Origin: Ardenticatenaceae bacterium
GTDB taxonomy: Bacteria > Chloroflexota > Anaerolineae > Promineifilales > Promineifilaceae
Direction: 5' to 3'
Assembly (NCBI GenBank): GCA_030065875.1
Contig: JASJCR010000005.1
Location: 1 to 64,000 of the forward strand
Length of the DNA: 64,000 nucleotides
How positions within the stretch are numbered: the stretch's first letter is position 1; each line of letters starts with the position of its first letter. The translations under genes and the position numbers were made by a program. This document shows, in pieces, positions 2,764-58,716 of this stretch. The notes under the pieces are model-generated. The model did not search any database, was not told where the DNA came from, and saw only the letters and a program-made list of their open reading frames with translations.

Positions 2764-3384
2764 ATGAAAATCGGTATTTTGGGTGCGGGAATTATTGGCC
2801 AAACGATCGGCCGCAAATGGGCTGCGGCCGGGCATGATCTCATGTTTGGAGTGCGCAATATAAAAAATCCGAAGCTGGAAGAATTGCAAAAGGAATTTGC
2901 CGCCTTTCCCAACACAACCACGGTTGGATCGACCATGGACGCCATCGCTTTTGGTGAAGTGATCCTGATCGCCATCCCCGGCACGGCCGTGGCCGGCATG
3001 GCCCAGGCATTCGGCAAGGGGCTCGATGGCAAAATTCTAATTGACGCCACCAATAAAGTTGGCGGTCAAACCCTCAACAGCGTCACCGACCTGCTCGAAC
3101 ACGCTCCCCAGGCGCACGTTTTCCGCGCCTTTCACACCCTCGGCTGGGAAAATTTTGCCAATCCAGCCATGAACGAGCAGACTATCGACCTCTTTTACGC
3201 GGGTCCCGACGACAACAGCCGCGAGGTAGTCGAACAACTCGTTGCCGATGTGGGGCTCAACCCGATCTATGTGGGCGGTCACGAGCAGCTGGATACGGTT
3301 GACGGGCTGACCAAGCTGTGGTTCGCCATGGCGTTTGGACAGGGCAAAGGGCGACGGTTGGCGTTTAAGATGATGACGGATTAA
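2764..3384 (+). CDS. NADPH-dependent F420 reductase-like oxidoreductase
   Basis: 206 aa from the ATG at 2764; AAGGAG at 2752-2757 fixes this start. The N-terminal Rossmann fold (MKIGILGAGIIGQTIGRKWAAAGHDLMFGVRN) places an R-N pair at the end of strand 2, typical of NADP(H) binding in the F420-dependent NADP oxidoreductase family (PF03807). The central segment VILIAIPGTAV and a C-terminal DTVDGLTKLWFAMAFGQG complete the fold at the usual length. Members either exchange hydride between F420 and NADP or act on unknown substrates; no F420-specific residue can be asserted here. Monocistronic, flanked by a hairpin repeat upstream and a heptamer array downstream. Confidence 0.8.
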   Translation: MKIGILGAGIIGQTIGRKWAAAGHDLMFGVRNIKNPKLEELQKEFAAFPNTTTVGSTMDAIAFGEVILIAIPGTAVAGMAQAFGKGLDGKILIDATNKVGGQTLNSVTDLLEHAPQAHVFRAFHTLGWENFANPAMNEQTIDLFYAGPDDNSREVVEQLVADVGLNPIYVGGHEQLDTVDGLTKLWFAMAFGQGKGRRLAFKMMTD

Positions 3385-3468
3385 CGATTTACGAAATACG
3401 ATATACGAGATACGAAATACGACATACGAGATACGAAATACGACATACGATTAACGATTTACGAAAAG
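3382..3468. repeat. Heptamer tandem repeat ACGAAAT
   Basis: About twelve degenerate 7-bp units (ACGAAAT, ACGACAT, ACGAGAT, ACGATTT) start at the stop codon of the previous gene. Smaller arrays of the same unit lie at 4589-4617, 4804-4837 (reverse orientation) and 46128-46152. Confidence 0.85.
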
Positions 3469-7365: not shown

Positions 7366-7518
7366 AATCTATCGAACAATATTCCGAACGCTAGTTCATA
7401 ATTCGTTATTGGTATATTGGTGTATTAGTTTATTGGTGTATTTTGTCATCCACTTACACCTATCACCCATCACCTATCACCCATCACCTATCACCCATCA
7501 CCTATTACCCAATACCCA
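7366..7518. repeat. Two tandem repeats between pnkp and hen1
   Basis: Degenerate TATTGGTG units at 7407-7443 are followed by a 7-bp array of ATCACCC/ATCACCT at about 7448-7530. The array runs into the last codons of hen1 (minus strand), where it supplies the GGTGAGGGGTGA containing the stop. Confidence 0.8.
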
Positions 7519-8916
7519 TCACCCCTCACCCAACCGAAACACCGCCATTTGCGACGGCGCGCCCAGCTGATCTTCAACCGGTCCCACCGGCTTGATGGTT
7601 ACCTCGTACCCGAATCGCGTGCCGACATCGGCCGTCCACGCCTCAAACTCGGCGCGGGTCCATTCAAAACGATGATCCCGATGGCGGAGGGTGCCGGCCG
7701 GCAGCGTTTCCCACACGGCGTTGTATTCGCGGTTGGGGGTAGTAAGCACGATCAGATTCGGCCGGGCAAATTCAAACAGCGCCCGCTCAAAGGCGGCCAG
7801 TCGTTCCGGTTCCAGATGCTCAATCACCTCAACCACTGCGGCCGCGTCGTACCCTTTCAGGCGCGCATCCCGATAGGTCAACGAGCCCTGAATGAGCTGA
7901 ATCCGCTGTCGCTGGCGTTCCGACAGGCGATCCAGATGAAGCCGCTGAGCGGCCCGTTCAAGAGATAAGGTGGACACATCCACACCCACAATTTTTTGAA
8001 AGTGTGGTTCCTTGAGCAAGCGCTGCAGCAGCTGCCCTTCCCCACAGCCAAGGTCCAGAACCCGCTGCGCCCCATCATCCTTGAGCACTTGAAAGACGGC
8101 AGCGAGCCGCTGTTGGTGCAGGCTTAGCGGCCACTCCAGCATCGCCTCTTCTTGATCTTGTGCCTCAACCTCATTATCGGCCGGTGGATCATCGGCGGTC
8201 AGCCGCTCAACCGCCAGCCGCTGCAGCGACCGCTGATATTTGAGGTAGCGACGTATGATCACCTCACGCAGCGGATGTTCCTTGAGCCACCCTTCTCCTT
8301 TGGTCAGCAGCTTGTCCACTTCATGATCGCCGACATAATAATGTTTTTCATTATCCAGTACCGGAATCAGAACATACAGGTGAGTTAGCAGTTCCGCCAG
8401 AGTAATCGTTTGAGCCAGGGTCAGTTGGTAGATATGGCTGTTTCCCCATTCGGGAAACCGTTCGTCCAGCGTCATACGTGCGGTTTTGACCCGGTATCCC
8501 AGCGGCTCAAACAAATCATAGAGTAATTTTTCGCCCGTCTGGCACGGCACGGCGGCCAGCGTAACCTCAAGAGGAATCGGGGTTTTGACTAATAAAGGCC
8601 GGTCCTTGCAGCGGCCGTTTAGGGCGGTGCCAAGCACCTGGGCGATGGCCACACTCAAAAATGAAGAGGCCACATACGGCCGATCGTTGACGTACTGTTT
8701 GAGAGCAAAATCCTGCCGCTTGCGGCCGCGGACTAGATCAACGGGGTTGATTTCCATTAGTAGAGCGGCCGTACAGCGCTCGGCCGTCGCTTCCGGATAA
8801 AACACGTGGGCCTTTCCAAAGGCCAACTTAAATTTTTGCACGCGATCCGGATGCTTGTGCAGCAGATAACCCAAATCAGTGGCCGGTTGATGTGTGGTAG
8901 TGATCGTCAGAAGCAT
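7519..8916 (-). CDS. hen1: Hen1, 3'-terminal RNA ribose 2'-O-methyltransferase
   Basis: 465 aa, matching the length of bacterial Hen1. The N-terminal half (MLLTITTTHQPATDLGYLLHKHP, then VDLVRGRKRQ, YVNDRPYVASSFLSVAI) is the Pnkp-ligase-activating Hen1 N domain. The C-terminal half is the SAM methyltransferase: VLDLGCGEGQLLQRLL binds SAM, and EVIEHLEPERL supplies the E-x2-E-H metal ligands. TTPNREYNAVW and RHRDHRFEWTRAEFEAW carry the distal His ligand. In the known system it methylates the 2'-OH at the break before Pnkp seals it, preventing re-cleavage. First gene of the hen1-pnkp minus-strand unit. Confidence 0.95.
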   Translation of the reverse strand: MLLTITTTHQPATDLGYLLHKHPDRVQKFKLAFGKAHVFYPEATAERCTAALLMEINPVDLVRGRKRQDFALKQYVNDRPYVASSFLSVAIAQVLGTALNGRCKDRPLLVKTPIPLEVTLAAVPCQTGEKLLYDLFEPLGYRVKTARMTLDERFPEWGNSHIYQLTLAQTITLAELLTHLYVLIPVLDNEKHYYVGDHEVDKLLTKGEGWLKEHPLREVIIRRYLKYQRSLQRLAVERLTADDPPADNEVEAQDQEEAMLEWPLSLHQQRLAAVFQVLKDDGAQRVLDLGCGEGQLLQRLLKEPHFQKIVGVDVSTLSLERAAQRLHLDRLSERQRQRIQLIQGSLTYRDARLKGYDAAAVVEVIEHLEPERLAAFERALFEFARPNLIVLTTPNREYNAVWETLPAGTLRHRDHRFEWTRAEFEAWTADVGTRFGYEVTIKPVGPVEDQLGAPSQMAVFRLGEG

Positions 8917-16313: not shown

Positions 16314-16382
16314 AGACTACAGACTACAGACTACAGACTACAGACTACAGACTACAGACTACAGACTACAGACTACAGACTA
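16314..16382. repeat. GACTACA heptamer array, ten near-perfect copies
   Basis: Almost perfect GACTACA units from 16314 to 16382, directly after the phnE stop. The near identity of units implies recent expansion or active slippage. Confidence 0.9.
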
Positions 16383-16421
16383 CTACAAAAAGTTTAGCCT
16401 ACTTTCACCTTATGTCAACCC

Positions 16422-16465
16422 CGCTGATGTCTGATGTCTGATGTCTGATGTCTGATGTCTGTGGT
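16422..16465. repeat. TCTGATG heptamer array
   Basis: About five TCTGATG units ending at the cmoB stop (minus strand). Together with the preceding array it fills the convergent phnE/cmoB gap. Confidence 0.85.
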
Positions 16466-17449
16466 CTAAGGTTTTATGGCGGAGAATGCCGCCCGCGTCG
16501 GAGCGGGATACCCCTCAACCGTGCGGGTCGGATCATCCGGGTTGAGGAAGTTTTGCAGAGAATGAAAGCGCATCCAGGGGGTTGAGCGCTGCTCTTTCGG
16601 GGTTGTGACGTTGACGTCAATCAACTCAATTTGGTTGAAGCCGCACTTGCGCAGCCAGCTTTCGAGGGTTAGTGGGGTTGGCAAAAACCACACGTTGCGC
16701 ATTTGGGCATAGCGCCCTTCCGGTACCAGAATTTGGCCGGGTCCACCGTCAATTACCAGGGTTTCCAGGATAAGCTGGCCGCCCGGCCGCAGGGCGTCGT
16801 GGAGCTTTAGTAGATGATCAAACGGGGAGCGAGCGTGATAGAGAACGCCCATCGAGAAAACGGTGTCAAATGATTTGAGATCGGCCGGCATCTGCTCAAA
16901 GCGCAGCGGCAGCACGCCGGCATTGTGCTGCTGGATATACCGTTTGAGCGCCTCAAACTGAAAAAGATAAAGCCACATCGGTTCTAACCCAACGACCGTC
17001 CGGGCACCGGCGCCAACCATGCGCCAGATATGGTATCCACTGCCGCATCCGATATCGAGAACGGTCCTTCCCTGAAGGGGATGGAGCGCCGGCCGGATGC
17101 GCTCCCATTTCCAATCAGAGCGCCATTCGGTATCGATCAAAATATCAAATAGAGAAAAGGGGCCTTTGCGCCACGGGTGCAGCAGCTGAAGCTGTTGTTC
17201 AAGGTGGGCGATCTCTTCCGGTGAGCCATCAGCGGCCGTGCCTACCTTGACCTGATCGACTAAATCAATTTGGGAGGGGTGGAGGGGAGGCATTTGGGCC
17301 ACGGCCGCAGCCCAGTGGGGAACCTGACCATGGCGTTGGATTTCAGACCGGGCGACCTGCTCTTTTATTTCGTATAGTTGTGGTTGCAGGGCTGTTGAAG
17401 CCAGATAGTCGAGAAATGGCTCATAAATCGGCCGCGCTTCTTCTGCCAT
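16466..17449 (-). CDS. cmoB: tRNA U34 carboxymethyltransferase CmoB
   Basis: 327 aa, close to E. coli CmoB (323 aa). It transfers the carboxymethyl group of carboxy-SAM to 5-hydroxyuridine at tRNA position 34, giving cmo5U. Seen in sequence: the N-terminal region with HGQVPHWAAAVAQMPP; WRKGPFSLFDILIDTEWRSDWKWERI; the SAM motif VLDIGCGSGYHIWRMVGAGARTVVGLEP; and VFSMGVLYHARSPFDHLLKLHDALRPGGQLILETLVI. The family-specific tail YAQMRNVWFLPTPLTLESWLRKCGF is also present. It is encoded 30 bp after cmoA on the same strand, the natural operon. The pathway is best known in Gammaproteobacteria, so transfer is possible. Confidence 0.93.
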   Translation of the reverse strand: MAEEARPIYEPFLDYLASTALQPQLYEIKEQVARSEIQRHGQVPHWAAAVAQMPPLHPSQIDLVDQVKVGTAADGSPEEIAHLEQQLQLLHPWRKGPFSLFDILIDTEWRSDWKWERIRPALHPLQGRTVLDIGCGSGYHIWRMVGAGARTVVGLEPMWLYLFQFEALKRYIQQHNAGVLPLRFEQMPADLKSFDTVFSMGVLYHARSPFDHLLKLHDALRPGGQLILETLVIDGGPGQILVPEGRYAQMRNVWFLPTPLTLESWLRKCGFNQIELIDVNVTTPKEQRSTPWMRFHSLQNFLNPDDPTRTVEGYPAPTRAAFSAIKP

Positions 17450-33528: not shown

Positions 33529-33692
33529 CAGTATACTTTCGTATATGATACTTGAAAGTATCATACCCTGATTGCATATGCTTTTGCTGCTTATGTCAAT
33601 CGCGAGCCACCAACTTCACAATTTATGTCAACTAAACCCCTTGACACGCCACCCAATTTAACATAAAATTACATTATTATACTTTCAAGTAT
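33529..33692. promoter_or_regulatory. ATACTT-N2-AAGTAT operator boxes in a divergent promoter
   Basis: ATGATACTTGAAAGTATCAT (33545-33564) and ATACTTTCAAGTAT (33679-33692) share one inverted core; a degenerate third copy (ATACTTTCGTATA) is at about 33532. They flank the divergent intergenic region between the PfkB kinase and the AAA ATPase, one next to each start. The regulator is unknown. Confidence 0.6.
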
Positions 33693-33711
33693 TATACCGA
33701 GCGTGTATATT

Positions 33712-35262
33712 ATGGGTAAAACAATCTTTAAAGGCCGGTCGGCCGAACTTCAACTGCTCGATGAGCTCTGGGATCTGCCCCGCAGCACCCTTTTGATCCT
33801 TTACGGCCGTCGCCGCGTTGGCAAAACCCGTTTGCTGACCCACTGGCTGGAAAAGGTTCCGGAGAATTCCCTCTACTGGGTGGCCGAACCCACCTCAGCC
33901 TATGATCAGCTGCGCTCGTTTTCGCAGGCGCTCTACAATTATGCCCATCCCGACACGCCCGCACCACCCGAATTCACCTATGCCACCTGGGAACAGGCGT
34001 TTCAGCAGCTGGCCCGCATGTCCGAAGAGCAAAAAATTGCGATTTTTATCGATGAGGTAACCTATCTCATCGACGTGAACCCCAAATTTGTCGGGACCCT
34101 GCAAAAAGTGTGGGATCATTATCTCTCGGAAGCCAATTTGCTGATGGCCCTTTCCGGATCCCAGATGGGCATGATGCAAAAGCAGGTGCTCTCTTATGAT
34201 GCGCCGCTGTACGGCCGGGCCACCGCCCAGGTCAAGCTGCCCCCGCTGCCGTTTGACGTCACCACCCAATTTTTCCCGGATTATTCCGCCAAGGAGCGCG
34301 TGGCCCTTTACGGCATTTTTGGCGGCATTCCCGCCTATTGGGAAAGGCTGGATCCCCAGGCAACTATTTTTGAAAACATTTACGCCCAGCTGTTGACCTC
34401 CAACTCGCTGATGCAGGAAGAGCCGCGACTGCTGCTGCAGGATTTCCTCACCGATCCATACAATTATGTCAGCATCATGCGGGCGATCGCCCACGGTGCC
34501 AATACACAGAGCAAGATCGGCCGTCGCACCGGACTTTCACAGGGTCACGTTTCCAAGTATCTGGGGGTGCTGCGCGAAACCGGGTTTGTTGAGCGGCAGG
34601 TTCCGGTCACCGAATCGGCTGAAACCTCGCGCCGCGGCCGCTACTTTGTGACCGATCCCTATCTGCGCTTTTACTATCGCTTTTTGTCAACCAACCAGGC
34701 CCAGCTGGCGATGGGTGGTCAACAAAAAACGTTGCAAACCATTCAAGAACAGCTCGATGATTTTGTCGAGCAAAATACGTGGCGCGATTTGTGCCGGGAA
34801 TGGCTGAGTAAAGCCAGTCAAACCGGCATGCTGCCGTTTGATCTGGAAAAAGTGGGCGGGGCCTGGACCCGGTCACAGGAAGCCGGTCTGGCCGCCATCG
34901 ATCGGCCCGGCGGGCGCCTGATTTTAGGGGATTGTTTCTGGGGCAGCGAACTGGCATCCGGTCAATCCCTGCAGTCACTGATTCGCCGTACCCCTTCACT
35001 GCTGCCCAAAACGGGCGAGTGGGAAGTGTATTACATTACTTTTTCAAGTGCCGGATGGACCGATGAAGCGCAGGCGCTAGCCAGACAATTTGCCATGCGG
35101 GGAGAGCAAGGCAAACGTTGGAGAGCGGCCGGGGTGGAACTGGTCGAATTAAGCCGCATCAACGAGGATTTAGCCGCGTGGGGAGCGGGGCAGCAATCGC
35201 TCGTTGGTAGTCAGCTGATGGCGCCGGTGATTCAGCCGCGCCTGTTTAACGGGGTATTCTAA
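33712..35262 (+). CDS. AAA ATPase with C-terminal DUF234-like domain
   Basis: 516 aa from the ATG at 33712 (a GTG at 33703 is an alternative). N-terminal archaeal-type ATPase: FKGRSAELQLLDELW, Walker A LYGRRRVGKTRLLTHWL, Walker B KIAIFIDEVTYLID, sensor LLMALSGSQMGMM and the family-typical GIFGGIPAYWERLD. A winged-helix segment follows (NTQSKIGRRTGLSQGHVSKYLGVLRETGFVERQVPVTE), then the DUF234 nuclease-like region (GRYFVTDPYLRFYYRFL; AAIDRPGGRLILGDCFW). Families of this architecture are often mobile and of unknown role. The C-terminal domain is PD-(D/E)XK-like but I cannot point to all catalytic residues. Confidence 0.85.
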   Translation: MGKTIFKGRSAELQLLDELWDLPRSTLLILYGRRRVGKTRLLTHWLEKVPENSLYWVAEPTSAYDQLRSFSQALYNYAHPDTPAPPEFTYATWEQAFQQLARMSEEQKIAIFIDEVTYLIDVNPKFVGTLQKVWDHYLSEANLLMALSGSQMGMMQKQVLSYDAPLYGRATAQVKLPPLPFDVTTQFFPDYSAKERVALYGIFGGIPAYWERLDPQATIFENIYAQLLTSNSLMQEEPRLLLQDFLTDPYNYVSIMRAIAHGANTQSKIGRRTGLSQGHVSKYLGVLRETGFVERQVPVTESAETSRRGRYFVTDPYLRFYYRFLSTNQAQLAMGGQQKTLQTIQEQLDDFVEQNTWRDLCREWLSKASQTGMLPFDLEKVGGAWTRSQEAGLAAIDRPGGRLILGDCFWGSELASGQSLQSLIRRTPSLLPKTGEWEVYYITFSSAGWTDEAQALARQFAMRGEQGKRWRAAGVELVELSRINEDLAAWGAGQQSLVGSQLMAPVIQPRLFNGVF

Positions 35263-35628: not shown

Positions 35629-38097
35629 GTGCTCAATTCGCAGGTAGCCGAGCTCAAGCTTCTTGGCTACTATAGTCAAATCTACAACAGCATCATTCAA
35701 TCTGGCCAGGTTTGGCGGGTTAGCAAATACTTCTTGCGCCGCTGGGGACCCTATCTGGGGCCGACCCGTTTCTGGACGATCGTCACCGCGCGTCAGCTGT
35801 GCTACCGCAACCAGCATGAAGATTGGTTTGAAGGGTATGATGCGGCCGTTGCCCAGGAGATTCAGATCAGCCGCGCCCATTACCGTCGTCTAAAGGCCGA
35901 AATGGACGATCAAAACGGCCTGCTCTCTAGCTTCATCTCACGACAAGCAACCACTTATCACGTGGTGAACGGCAAAACACGGCCGAAACCCACTCTCTAT
36001 CACGTCCGGCTTGATGATCCGCTCACGCCGGCCGACGCCGCCTATCTGGCCGGCTGGCTTCGCCAACGGCAGGTAAAGCGCCGCACAGATGATGTGGTCC
36101 GCCTGCTGCACAGCGCCCGGGAAATTTCCCGCCAGGAATTACTTGACCCTCACCCTGCCCCCATCGCGTGGGGCGGTACCGTCGGCTTGGAACCGGTTAC
36201 CGTCCTGCAGGTGGTGCGGCAGGTGTTTGGGGGCCATATCGCCGATCAACCGGAAATTATCAAAGCGTCTGAGGCGCTGCACGCCTATCTGACCGATAAT
36301 GACTTTGTCGGCAAACAGTATTTCCGTCACCGCTGGCTAAAGCACCTCAAGGCGGGACCGGCATTCTTGTTAATTTATCTCCGCAGCCTCTGTTACTACA
36401 ACGAACAAAGTGGGGAGCTGCGCAATGAAATCATTGTCGATCGCCAGCAGCTGGCCCAAACGCTGGCCGTCAAGCCCAACACCATTTCCGACTGGCTGAA
36501 AACATTGGCTACCATTGCCCCACAGCAAACGCTGCCCCCGTTTTTAACCCTGCAGAAAAAAGGGCGCACGGCCGAAAATACGTATGTTTTTACCTACCAG
36601 GTCGGAATGCTCGATCCACTGACCCCGGACGATCTACCGCAATATGAAGCGGCCGTTTCAGCCCACGATCCCTCATCTCCACAGCCGATCACCATCACAA
36701 ATAGGGGTCGATCCGAAAATGAGCGTCACAAGAAAGAGGAAAACACCCCATCTCAATCCGAAAATGAGATTCACAAAGAGCCTCAATTTGCCCACTCTCA
36801 ATCTGATTTTGAGCGTCACGACCCGGCCAATAGCGAGCCTCGATCCGAAAATGAGCGTCTCGCCACCCCGTCTGAATCCGAATTTGAGCATCACAACAGC
36901 GTTAAAGCCCTTGGTCGATCCGAAAATGAACGTCACGATCAAGGGCAGAATCCGAATTTGAGCGCGGCTGAACACAAAAATGATAGGGGGTCAGTGCCAG
37001 AATGCGCGTCTTTTAAATACTTCCCAACTCTTTTATCACTGCAGCAGGATGAAATAAACACCTGGCTGGCGGCGGCCGGCTGGCCATTTTCGCTGGACCT
37101 GCTGAGACAATCGTTGGTTCATGCGATTTCTCAGAATGATTTGGACACGTTCCTGGATTTTCTGGGGATCGATCCTGGTGGCCCAGCCAGACAGCGAATC
37201 AGGGCGAGCGGATTGTCAGCGGTAGAGGGCACGGCGTGGTGGCTCTACGCGCTGACCCAGCCTGGTTTACAGCGGCCGATGCATTTTGTCATTGCCCGGA
37301 TGTCGGCGGGGGTGCCGCCCCCGCGGCCGTTTGTTGATTTGGCCAACCTGTCGGTTGAAGGGTGGCTTACCTTCGCCTTAAACGAGCAGCTTCCAGAAGC
37401 ATTGCGGCTTGAGTGGGGGAGTGATCCGGTTTACGGGCATTGGTCAGAGATTTACGGCTTAGAGAGAGAGCTGCCGCTCCTGGTGATGGGTTGGGTGGAG
37501 GTGCTAGACGAGCCGCTGTACAGACACATGATTCGTGTAGTGGATAGTCAGGATAGCGTGACCGCGGATGATGCCCATCCGGCTGAGGGATGGTGGCCGG
37601 CCGCTTGTGAAATTCTTCAACAGCAGATGCCCGCATCGATATACGAAATTTTTGTCAAGCCTATACAATGTGCATGGGGTAGGGGAGCGGTGTCTTTGTC
37701 GGTGCCGGATCAAACCGCTCAAACGTACCTCGAGCAGGCGCTGCGGCCGCAGATCGAGGAGGTTCTGGCGCAAATAGCCGGCCGGTCGCTTGAGCTTGAG
37801 TTTCACGTTCAAGGTGTGAGCGAGGACCAACCAACCGGTGTCGACGAAACCGCCCGCTATCGGTCGATTTGGCAGGAGGTTAAAGAGGCGCTTTCTTTGC
37901 AAATGGCCCGGTCAACCTATGATCAGTGGCTGCACAAAAGTGAATGTATTGAAGGGAAGCCCGGTGAGCTGATTGTGGCAGTAGAGACCGCTTATGCTCA
38001 AGAATGGTTGGAAAATCGGCTGCGCCCGTTAATCGAAAAAAACCTGCGGCTCGCTGCGGCCGGTGAGGATTTCGAGGTCATTTTTGTTGTATCTTAA
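35629..38097 (+). CDS. Replication-initiator-like protein with two C-terminal DnaA domain-I modules
   Basis: 822 aa from a GTG with AAGGAG five bases upstream. The N-terminal ~330 residues hold helical DNA-binding regions, one being LRNEIIVDRQQLAQTLAVKPNTISDWLKTLATI, a winged-helix pattern as in plasmid initiators. Residues ~360-445 are a hydrophilic linker with seven SENERH-like repeats, encoded by iteron-like DNA (36708-36968). The C-terminus has two tandem DnaA_N-type domains: ~WWPAACEILQQQMPASIYEIFVKPIQCAWG...LSVPDQTAQTYLEQALRPQIEEVL and IWQEVKEALSLQMARSTYDQWLHKSECIEG...VAVETAYAQEWLENRLRPLIEKNL. DnaA domain I recruits helicase DnaB and partners. There is no AAA+ or DnaA domain IV. Its role as initiator is inferred. 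Confidence 0.75.
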   Translation: MLNSQVAELKLLGYYSQIYNSIIQSGQVWRVSKYFLRRWGPYLGPTRFWTIVTARQLCYRNQHEDWFEGYDAAVAQEIQISRAHYRRLKAEMDDQNGLLSSFISRQATTYHVVNGKTRPKPTLYHVRLDDPLTPADAAYLAGWLRQRQVKRRTDDVVRLLHSAREISRQELLDPHPAPIAWGGTVGLEPVTVLQVVRQVFGGHIADQPEIIKASEALHAYLTDNDFVGKQYFRHRWLKHLKAGPAFLLIYLRSLCYYNEQSGELRNEIIVDRQQLAQTLAVKPNTISDWLKTLATIAPQQTLPPFLTLQKKGRTAENTYVFTYQVGMLDPLTPDDLPQYEAAVSAHDPSSPQPITITNRGRSENERHKKEENTPSQSENEIHKEPQFAHSQSDFERHDPANSEPRSENERLATPSESEFEHHNSVKALGRSENERHDQGQNPNLSAAEHKNDRGSVPECASFKYFPTLLSLQQDEINTWLAAAGWPFSLDLLRQSLVHAISQNDLDTFLDFLGIDPGGPARQRIRASGLSAVEGTAWWLYALTQPGLQRPMHFVIARMSAGVPPPRPFVDLANLSVEGWLTFALNEQLPEALRLEWGSDPVYGHWSEIYGLERELPLLVMGWVEVLDEPLYRHMIRVVDSQDSVTADDAHPAEGWWPAACEILQQQMPASIYEIFVKPIQCAWGRGAVSLSVPDQTAQTYLEQALRPQIEEVLAQIAGRSLELEFHVQGVSEDQPTGVDETARYRSIWQEVKEALSLQMARSTYDQWLHKSECIEGKPGELIVAVETAYAQEWLENRLRPLIEKNLRLAAAGEDFEVIFVVS
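36708..36968 (+). repeat. Seven iteron-like repeats inside the initiator gene
   Basis: Core GATCCGAAAATGAGCGTCAC, in copies starting at 36708, 36753, 36798, 36840, 36873, 36915 and 36947. Spacings are 45, 45, 42, 33, 42 and ~33 bp, always in frame. The peptide repeat is SENERH/SEFEHH. Conservation at codon third positions, as well as in the peptide, hints that the DNA itself is a binding site. Phage lambda O is the known precedent for an origin inside an initiator gene. Confidence 0.8.
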
Positions 38098-38419
38098 ACA
38101 GTTTGTATCCAAATTGATACGAAAAATGTGTTTTTGAGCGCGGCAAACTCCTTTGGAATGCGCAAAATAATAGTACAAAAGTCCTGAAAAATTGTGGGGT
38201 TCATCAAAACAACTTTGCCACATCTCAAATTTGATGACTGCCTTTTTAAGGTAAAACCCCAACAAATGCGCAGCCAACGCCGTTGCTCCAGCCGTATCGA
38301 AGCAAATCGCCCGATTTGTCGGCTGCCCAGGCAGATGATCCGTCAAACTTGTGTACATTAAAGCTGAAAAGACGATTCTAGACAGGATCGTGTTTCGCAC
38401 AACTTTGGAGGTCGGAGAG
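38098..38419. other. Intergenic region after the initiator gene
   Basis: GTATC/GATAC dyad at about 38105-38120. TTTGAGCGCGGC at 38135-38146 is identical to part of the last iteron. Nothing else was seen; a 123-codon minus-strand frame across it overlaps the initiator gene and lacks family features. Confidence 0.4.
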
Positions 38420-58614: not shown

Positions 58615-58716
58615 AAAAGGAGATCGGGTGTTGGGTGATAGGTGAAGGGTGAAAGGTGGAAGGTGGAAGGTGATAGGTGGAAGGTGAAAGGTGGAAGGTG
58701 AAAGGTGGAAGGCGAT
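58615..58716. repeat. GGTGAAA/GGTGGAA heptamer array
   Basis: About fourteen 7-bp units (GGTGATA, GGTGAAA, GGTGGAA) lie between the divergent glycosyltransferase and NAD synthetase genes. The same unit appears in reverse at 7448-7530. Confidence 0.85.

Follow-up and report, generated by a model that had tools for sequence, protein, structure and literature searches.

Iterons within the initiator gene are known from gene O of phage lambda (PMC7466680) and from the plasmids pAD1, pLS32, pSK1 and pSK41 (PMC3155836). In ori-lambda, an AT-rich tract comes after the iterons, in the central part of the initiator gene (PMC7466680). The initiators of the RepA_N theta plasmids (pSK41, and also pSK1, pAD1 and pLS32) have a winged-helix N-terminus, which binds central Rep boxes in their own rep gene (PMC3155836). 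For pSK41, it was reported that four boxes at the centre of rep are the binding sites of the N-terminal domain, that the part of the protein encoded by the origin is a linker, and that the C-terminal end may be host-specific (PMC5703833). The origin of the repABC plasmid p42d lies within repC, which has no iterons and only an A+T-rich region (PMC3155836).

Here, a stretch of 64,000 nt from Ardenticatenaceae bacterium GCA_030065875.1 (contig JASJCR010000005.1, positions 1–64,000, forward strand), hereafter called the window, was analysed. An original prediction had proposed that a repeat array inside an initiator gene of this DNA could be a replication origin. This proposal was supported by repeat copies in two reading frames in homologues, by an AT-rich neighbour in 18 of 18 homologues and by a skew minimum, and we consider it highly probable that the array is the initiator-binding part of an intragenic theta origin within the initiator gene.

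Initiator-like gene and its product

The gene and the domains of its product were as follows.

35629–38097, + strand: initiator-like gene, 822 aa, with a GTG start preceded by GGAGATGTC (ORF list, translation and homologues)
35629–36660, + strand: N-terminal module of two tandem winged-helix domains, residues 1–344 (AlphaFold and PDB structure matches)
37579–37815, + strand: first DnaA domain-I-like domain, residues ~651–729 (TIGR00362 stretch 656–732; VIA Z 8.8 to 2e0g)
37840–38094, + strand: second DnaA domain-I-like domain, residues ~738–822 (Pfam DnaA_N 6e-12; PDB profile 4tps 1.3e-15; VIA Z 15.7)

The N-terminal module, modelled by AlphaFold with 25 aligned members, was predicted to form two winged-helix domains (pLDDT 89.6, pTM 0.87). 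By VIA-align, its top full-span PDB match was RepE54, the RepE of plasmid F (Z 8.6, 188 residues, 4.2 Å), followed by the Rep–iteron–DUE complex 8aan (Z 8.3). Because these Z values lie at the upper edge of the background, the fold is named RepE-like and membership in Rep_3 is not claimed. Foldseek on its own gave no significant PDB match for the module.

The last C-terminal domain matched DnaA domain I (4tps) with a VIA Z of 15.7, and the two modelled DnaA domain-I-like folds are plausibly a candidate helicase-recruiting end. In other lineages the DnaA domain was found at the N-terminus rather than the C-terminus, and in one homologue (L083) the region past the linker matched a DnaD-like helicase loader (5e-4). 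The end of the initiator seems to be exchangeable helicase-recruiting gear.

Direct repeats in the linker-coding DNA

The array lies in the DNA that codes for the hydrophilic linker of the protein (~residues 345–455).

36708–36729, + strand: iteron 1, TCGATCCGAAAATGAGCGTCAC
36753–36774, + strand: iteron 2
36798–36819, + strand: iteron 3, TTTT variant
36840–36861, + strand: iteron 4
36873–36894, + strand: iteron 5, TTT variant
36915–36936, + strand: iteron 6
about 36948–36964, + strand: iteron 7, partial (16 nt), out of frame relative to the others, GAATCCGAATTTGAGC / AATCCGAATTTGAGCG
38133–38144, + strand: 12-nt echo of the last iteron past the stop codon

Seven copies of a ~20-bp unit had been predicted at 36708–36968. 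The repeats were found to be real, with six 22-nt direct repeats (TCGATCCGAAAATGAGCGTCAC, 77–100% identity) at 36708–36936 and spacings of 45, 45, 42, 33 and 42; the seventh copy is only 16 nt long and is out of frame, which had gone unnoticed. When ATCCGAAAATGAGCGTCAC was searched with up to 3 mismatches across the 64-kb window, all 5 matches fell in the array, against 0.02 expected. The units had been described as encoding SENERH-type peptides. The six in-frame units do encode similar peptides, those of units 3 and 5 being SDFERH and SEFEHH. The seventh copy GAATCCGAATTTGAGC is identical at 16/16 positions to part of unit 5, from which it is 74 nt away and therefore out of frame, and it encodes NPNLS, not SEFEH. 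As a clue from sequence for conservation of the DNA, this out-of-frame copy is the best single one. It was missed by the 20-nt PWM and was recovered only through its 16-nt left part.

The claim that conservation of the units extends to synonymous third positions was borne out. The six in-frame units shared 75.0% identity, versus 56.3 ± 2.4% after recoding with the gene's own codon usage (0/20,000), and the same recoding test gave 1/20,000 for L012 and 0/20,000 for L013. Of the echo reported past the stop codon, an exact 12-nt match, TTTGAGCGCGGC, with 36957–36968 was confirmed; the match is weak and possibly due to chance. It was given little weight because no + strand iteron copy outside the ORF was found by PWM in any homologue checked. 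Single iteron-like matches elsewhere in the same genome (L003, L005, L007 and L008) were not arrays, and no canonical DnaA box was found within 5 kb of the array.

The window also contains many tandem arrays of short units, most with a period of 7 or 14 bp, at 2539–2602, 3384–3466, 7407–7532, 16314–16467 and 58634–58712, including a perfect (AGACTAC)x10 at 16314–16383.

Homologues and their arrays

Whole-genome searches recovered same-family relatives at 30–46% identity, three of them complete (L011, L012 and L013) and three partial (L014, L015 and L016). The N-terminal profile added ~30 more distant relatives across the class, profile A2 recovered 5 loci, and a wider profile reached other classes of Chloroflexota. 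Alignment A1 was too diverse for pattern search, and the single-protein scan of genome contigs gave no matches. The window-type gene was sporadic (7/52 genomes of the family), and a homologue of any type was present in 31/396 sampled genomes of the class (~8%). No relatives were found among viral contigs or phages. The plasmid collection yielded one distant relative, on Leptolinea plasmid AP024711, which had no clear linker array; its other matches were to DnaA domain I only. On this plasmid (L123, 5491–6378), a 295-aa protein with a DnaA domain-I-like start and a winged-helix-like part is encoded behind two genes, one small and one ATPase-like, and is probably a short relative of the initiator.

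The original prediction had raised the question of whether homologues keep the DNA repeat or only the peptide. It was found that they keep the DNA repeat: a lineage-specific array was present in the same linker of 18 non-redundant homologues, almost all homologues that possess a linker carry one of their own, and the copies are often in two frames. The repeat units differed by lineage (TTGCAAAATGAGACNCAC in L012, GGAAAAAATGAGNNNCAC in L013, TGGCGCAAATG in L082, CCAAAAGGCGACAC in L083, ACTGATGAAC in L075, and GACGCAGATGGG in L087–L090 and L092). Weak arrays of 3 or 4 copies were seen in L076, L078 and L080, and no array was called in the truncated L093 or in L098.

About ten lineages have copies in two reading frames (the window, L011, L013, L016, L075, L077, L079, L081, L082, L083, L084, L085 and L086–L092). 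In L082, nine copies are spaced by 23, 22, 23, 22, 23, 22, 23 and 22, so that the reading frame alternates. The spacings were 23, 31, 23, 31, 23, 31 and 33 in L083, and 23, 31, 23, 31, 23 and 22 in L075; the six copies of L012 are all in frame. PWMs trained on copies of one frame recovered those of the other frame, with a chance expectation of <=0.017 per strand. Because copies occur in two frames, it is the nucleotide unit that is kept and not the peptide. Over 81 non-redundant spacings, the best period was 10.85 bp (Rayleigh R 0.77), and the 3-bp component was 0.30. The two-frame copies together with a period of ~10.85 bp rather than 3 bp thus indicated conservation of DNA; a peptide function cannot explain these features, but binding of a protein along one side of the helix can.

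In L254, a single-winged-helix relative from another class of the phylum (G430), 25-bp palindromes of the GTAAAGTGCCAATTTGGCACTTTAC type occur in the linker, with no direct repeats. They were not seen by the 10-mer direct-repeat scan and were spotted later by eye.

AT-rich element next to the array

The AT-richest part of the gene adjoins the array; this unwinding-element-like stretch was absent from the original prediction.

36999–37058, + strand: AT-rich stretch, candidate DNA unwinding element, containing TCTTTTAAATACTTCCCAACTCTTTTATCA; the AT-richest 60 nt of the gene

In 18 of 18 non-redundant homologues, the 60 nt with the highest AT content in the entire gene began between –30 and +75 nt from the array end, against 0.94 expected, a figure that is somewhat flattering because the range was picked after a first look at the data. 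In a homologue from G082 that was analysed afterwards (L108), the array is likewise followed by the AT maximum, with three CTCTTAA. The AT-rich stretches have 7-mers of the TTTAAA/CTCTTAA type in common, 9 of which occur in at least 5 lineages (0.6 expected); they span lineages with differing iterons, again in more than one frame. Among the ~30 relatives examined, nearly all appear, as judged from their sequences, to keep the intragenic arrangement of repeats and AT-rich stretch, even where this arrangement disrupts the reading frame.

It was also observed that GCTGCTG runs (Ala codons) are enriched 12–33 fold at ~60–110 nt past the array in 8/18 lineages (for example L012, L074, L075, L077 and L078). 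They could be a further origin element or mere poly-Ala.

Neighbouring genes and GC skew

A conserved partner gene lies upstream of the initiator-like gene.

33703–35262, + strand: gene of an ATPase_2/DUF234 AAA+ protein, 519 aa (Pfam); its homologue adjoins rep in L113, L114, L115 and L122

The outer flanks in the window are ordinary metabolic genes. No partition or transfer genes were found close by, and the scan of flanking genes at the window module and at L113 showed no parA. In the synteny and empty-site comparison, homologues of the M20 gene were found without neighbouring FeThRed_B and rep. The promoter region between the divergent PfkB and ATPase genes contains a 22-nt inverted repeat (TATGATACTTGAAAGTATCATA / TATTATACTTTCAAGTATTATA, 33544–33565 and 33675–33696), each arm of which is nearly palindromic and which looks operator-like.

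Elsewhere, the neighbours of rep support the origin reading: ParA and ParB in G340, with the order parA–parB–rep there and in the near-syntenic G317; ParA and an unknown small protein in G082, G276 and G118; an adjoining tyrosine integrase in G346; and Prim-Pol, RecA, UmuC and DnaE genes in G049. In the last case (L113, 2003–13271), the Prim-Pol, ATPase, rep, RecA, UmuC-like and DnaE-like genes form one run that resembles a plasmid replication and mutagenesis block. The closed chromosome of G082 was observed to carry two inverted copies (88% identity) of a 7-kb parA–rep island (L106, 5756–12707; L107, 7672–14620), comprising ParA, the unknown small protein, rep and another three genes; the first copy has a CcrB-like serine recombinase nearby.

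A GC-skew inflection at the array had been suggested as a check, and one was observed. The cumulative GC skew of the full contig, which at 80,459 bp is short for skew reading, has its minimum at 36,910, within the array. To the right of the array, third-position skew was positive for genes on both strands (+0.067 and +0.112); on the left arm the skew was weakly negative and uneven, with positive stretches at 10–20 kb. The depth of the V-shape was not matched in shuffles of 2-kb blocks (0/2000). No skew flip was found at the dnaA of the same genome (C99). On a 1.5-Mb contig of a related genome (G317:C4, with dnaA on another contig), the homologue at 1.225 Mb falls within the fitted origin of 1.21–1.24 Mb, in a half-circle fit that assumes a circular contig with an opposite terminus, has a two-arm pattern of p ~0.09 and was sampled more densely near rep.

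A chromosomal-origin reading was rejected for the closed Anaerolineae chromosomes G258 and G381, where the distant homologue lies away from the skew origin; an integrated copy therefore need not fire. The skew supports an origin here, short of proof, and copies elsewhere may be silent.

Interpretation of the array

The origin reading is carried by DNA-conserved repeats, their helical phasing, the adjacent AT-rich element, the predicted folds, the lineage-specific iterons and the coincidence with the skew minimum. Under this reading, the initiator would use its tandem winged helices to bind the direct repeats (iterons) in the linker DNA and would assemble there along one side of the DNA helix, thereby opening the AT-rich stretch right after the array. 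For theta replication, the DnaA domain-I-like end, present here in two copies, would then recruit or position a helicase of the DnaB type. The peptide of the linker would be a mere by-product of the origin DNA. We infer binding of the array, melting of the AT-rich stretch, helicase recruitment and activity in this genome from these features.

Other explanations were weighed against them. If the array were a protein-level feature, a SENERH-type linker peptide repeat whose DNA likeness is left from recent tandem duplication, one would expect copies in frame with similar peptides, as are six of the seven in the window and all six of L012. Nevertheless, the seventh copy, like many of those in homologues, lies in another frame and encodes an unrelated peptide, synonymous sites are conserved beyond codon usage, and the spacings track the helical repeat and not codons; this explanation is already largely refuted, and hardly any credence is left to it. 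A partition centromere, bound by ParB or a small DNA-binding partner, is suggested by the relatives from other genera that have parA and a ParB-like or unknown small protein beside rep. It is very improbable, as the array is present in the window module and L113 though no parA was seen among the flanking genes scanned, and as it always lies in rep, between the DNA-binding domains and the AT-rich element, whatever the neighbours. Iterons commonly regulate copy number too, and the module has an operator-like inverted repeat elsewhere (33544–33565/33675–33696), so the array might comprise operator, titration or handcuffing sites for the initiator or a partner, controlling expression or copy number, with the origin elsewhere. 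An operator deep within a gene would be unusual, however, and both the AT-rich element, which adjoins the array in 18 of 18 homologues, and the position of the skew minimum fit an origin; we consider such a purely regulatory role improbable.

The array may also be a former origin, now the silent relic of an integrated plasmid or island. The metabolic-gene flanks, the sporadic presence (7/52 genomes of the family) and the closed chromosomes whose distant homologues do not coincide with the skew origin point in this direction, while the open gene, the intact iterons and a contig skew that flips at the array with the sign of an active origin point away from it. Silence in this genome is a possibility to be taken seriously, though we are inclined to doubt it. 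Metabolic genes on the contig, the skew flip at the array and the fitted origin at the homologue of G317:C4 would suit a chromid, a large secondary replicon of this bacterium and related Chloroflexota that replicates from the intragenic origin; we regard this as rather unlikely. The replicon types suggested are plasmid, chromid or integrated island, all of them seen or suggested among the relatives.

With the array read as part of an intragenic origin, the locus defines a new initiator family, marked by winged helices in tandem, by iterons and an unwinding element inside the gene and by a grafted DnaA domain I; from its phylum, few plasmids have been characterised. The locus would provide a compact, self-contained candidate ori–rep unit and a possible base for Chloroflexota vectors. 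In the frame-alternating arrays, the constraint on DNA sites has prevailed over protein coding with a clarity that is unusual among natural examples, and the differences in repeats between lineages allow co-evolution of initiator and iterons to be tested directly.

Comparison with known systems

By analogy, pSK41 is the closest counterpart in its workings. As in RepA_N plasmids, the repeats of the window are central in rep, in the linker-coding part. Together with the AT-rich stretch, they reproduce the order of iterons and unwinding element seen in lambda O and in rep of pSK41. In contrast to them, there are two winged helices instead of one, a DnaA domain-I end and iterons often in two frames, and the host belongs to Chloroflexota. 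RepA_N (PF06970) had no match in the 25 members at E 0.1 or in P0001 at E 1, and RepA_N structures matched the N-terminal module over one winged helix only, with Z values near background (4pt7, 8.0; 5kbj, 7.9).

Like lambda O, the window gene has iterons and an AT-rich tract in mid-gene; the lambda O family in PHROGs had no match among 8 members. Unlike in lambda, no gene P-like helicase loader was seen adjoining, and the initiator instead carries a fused DnaA domain-I-like end. The proposed location of the origin within the initiator gene is shared with repABC plasmids and chromids of Alphaproteobacteria, as is the parA–parB–rep order of G340 and G317. Nevertheless, the window gene has iterons and repC has none, and RP-C (the RepC family) had no match in the window protein or the 25 members.

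The tandem winged-helix fold, and direct-repeat iterons beside an AT-rich element, are features of Rep_3 initiators (RepE of F and the Rep of 8aan). In the comparison of folds, 188 residues matched with Z 8.6, at the top of the background range, and Rep_3 (PF01051) had no sequence match in the window protein or the 25 members. The iterons of Rep_3 plasmids are located outside the gene. With DnaA, the protein shares the fold of domain I (4tps, Z 15.7), but in the family this domain has moved to either end of the protein, and in the window protein it is doubled; no match to the DnaA AAA+ domain or domain IV was found in the window protein. The family is set apart as a variant because it has no sequence match to lambda O, RepA_N or repABC. 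As judged from sequence, it is a broad, previously unmodelled initiator family in Chloroflexota, whose proposed intragenic-iteron origin is itself of an already known kind.
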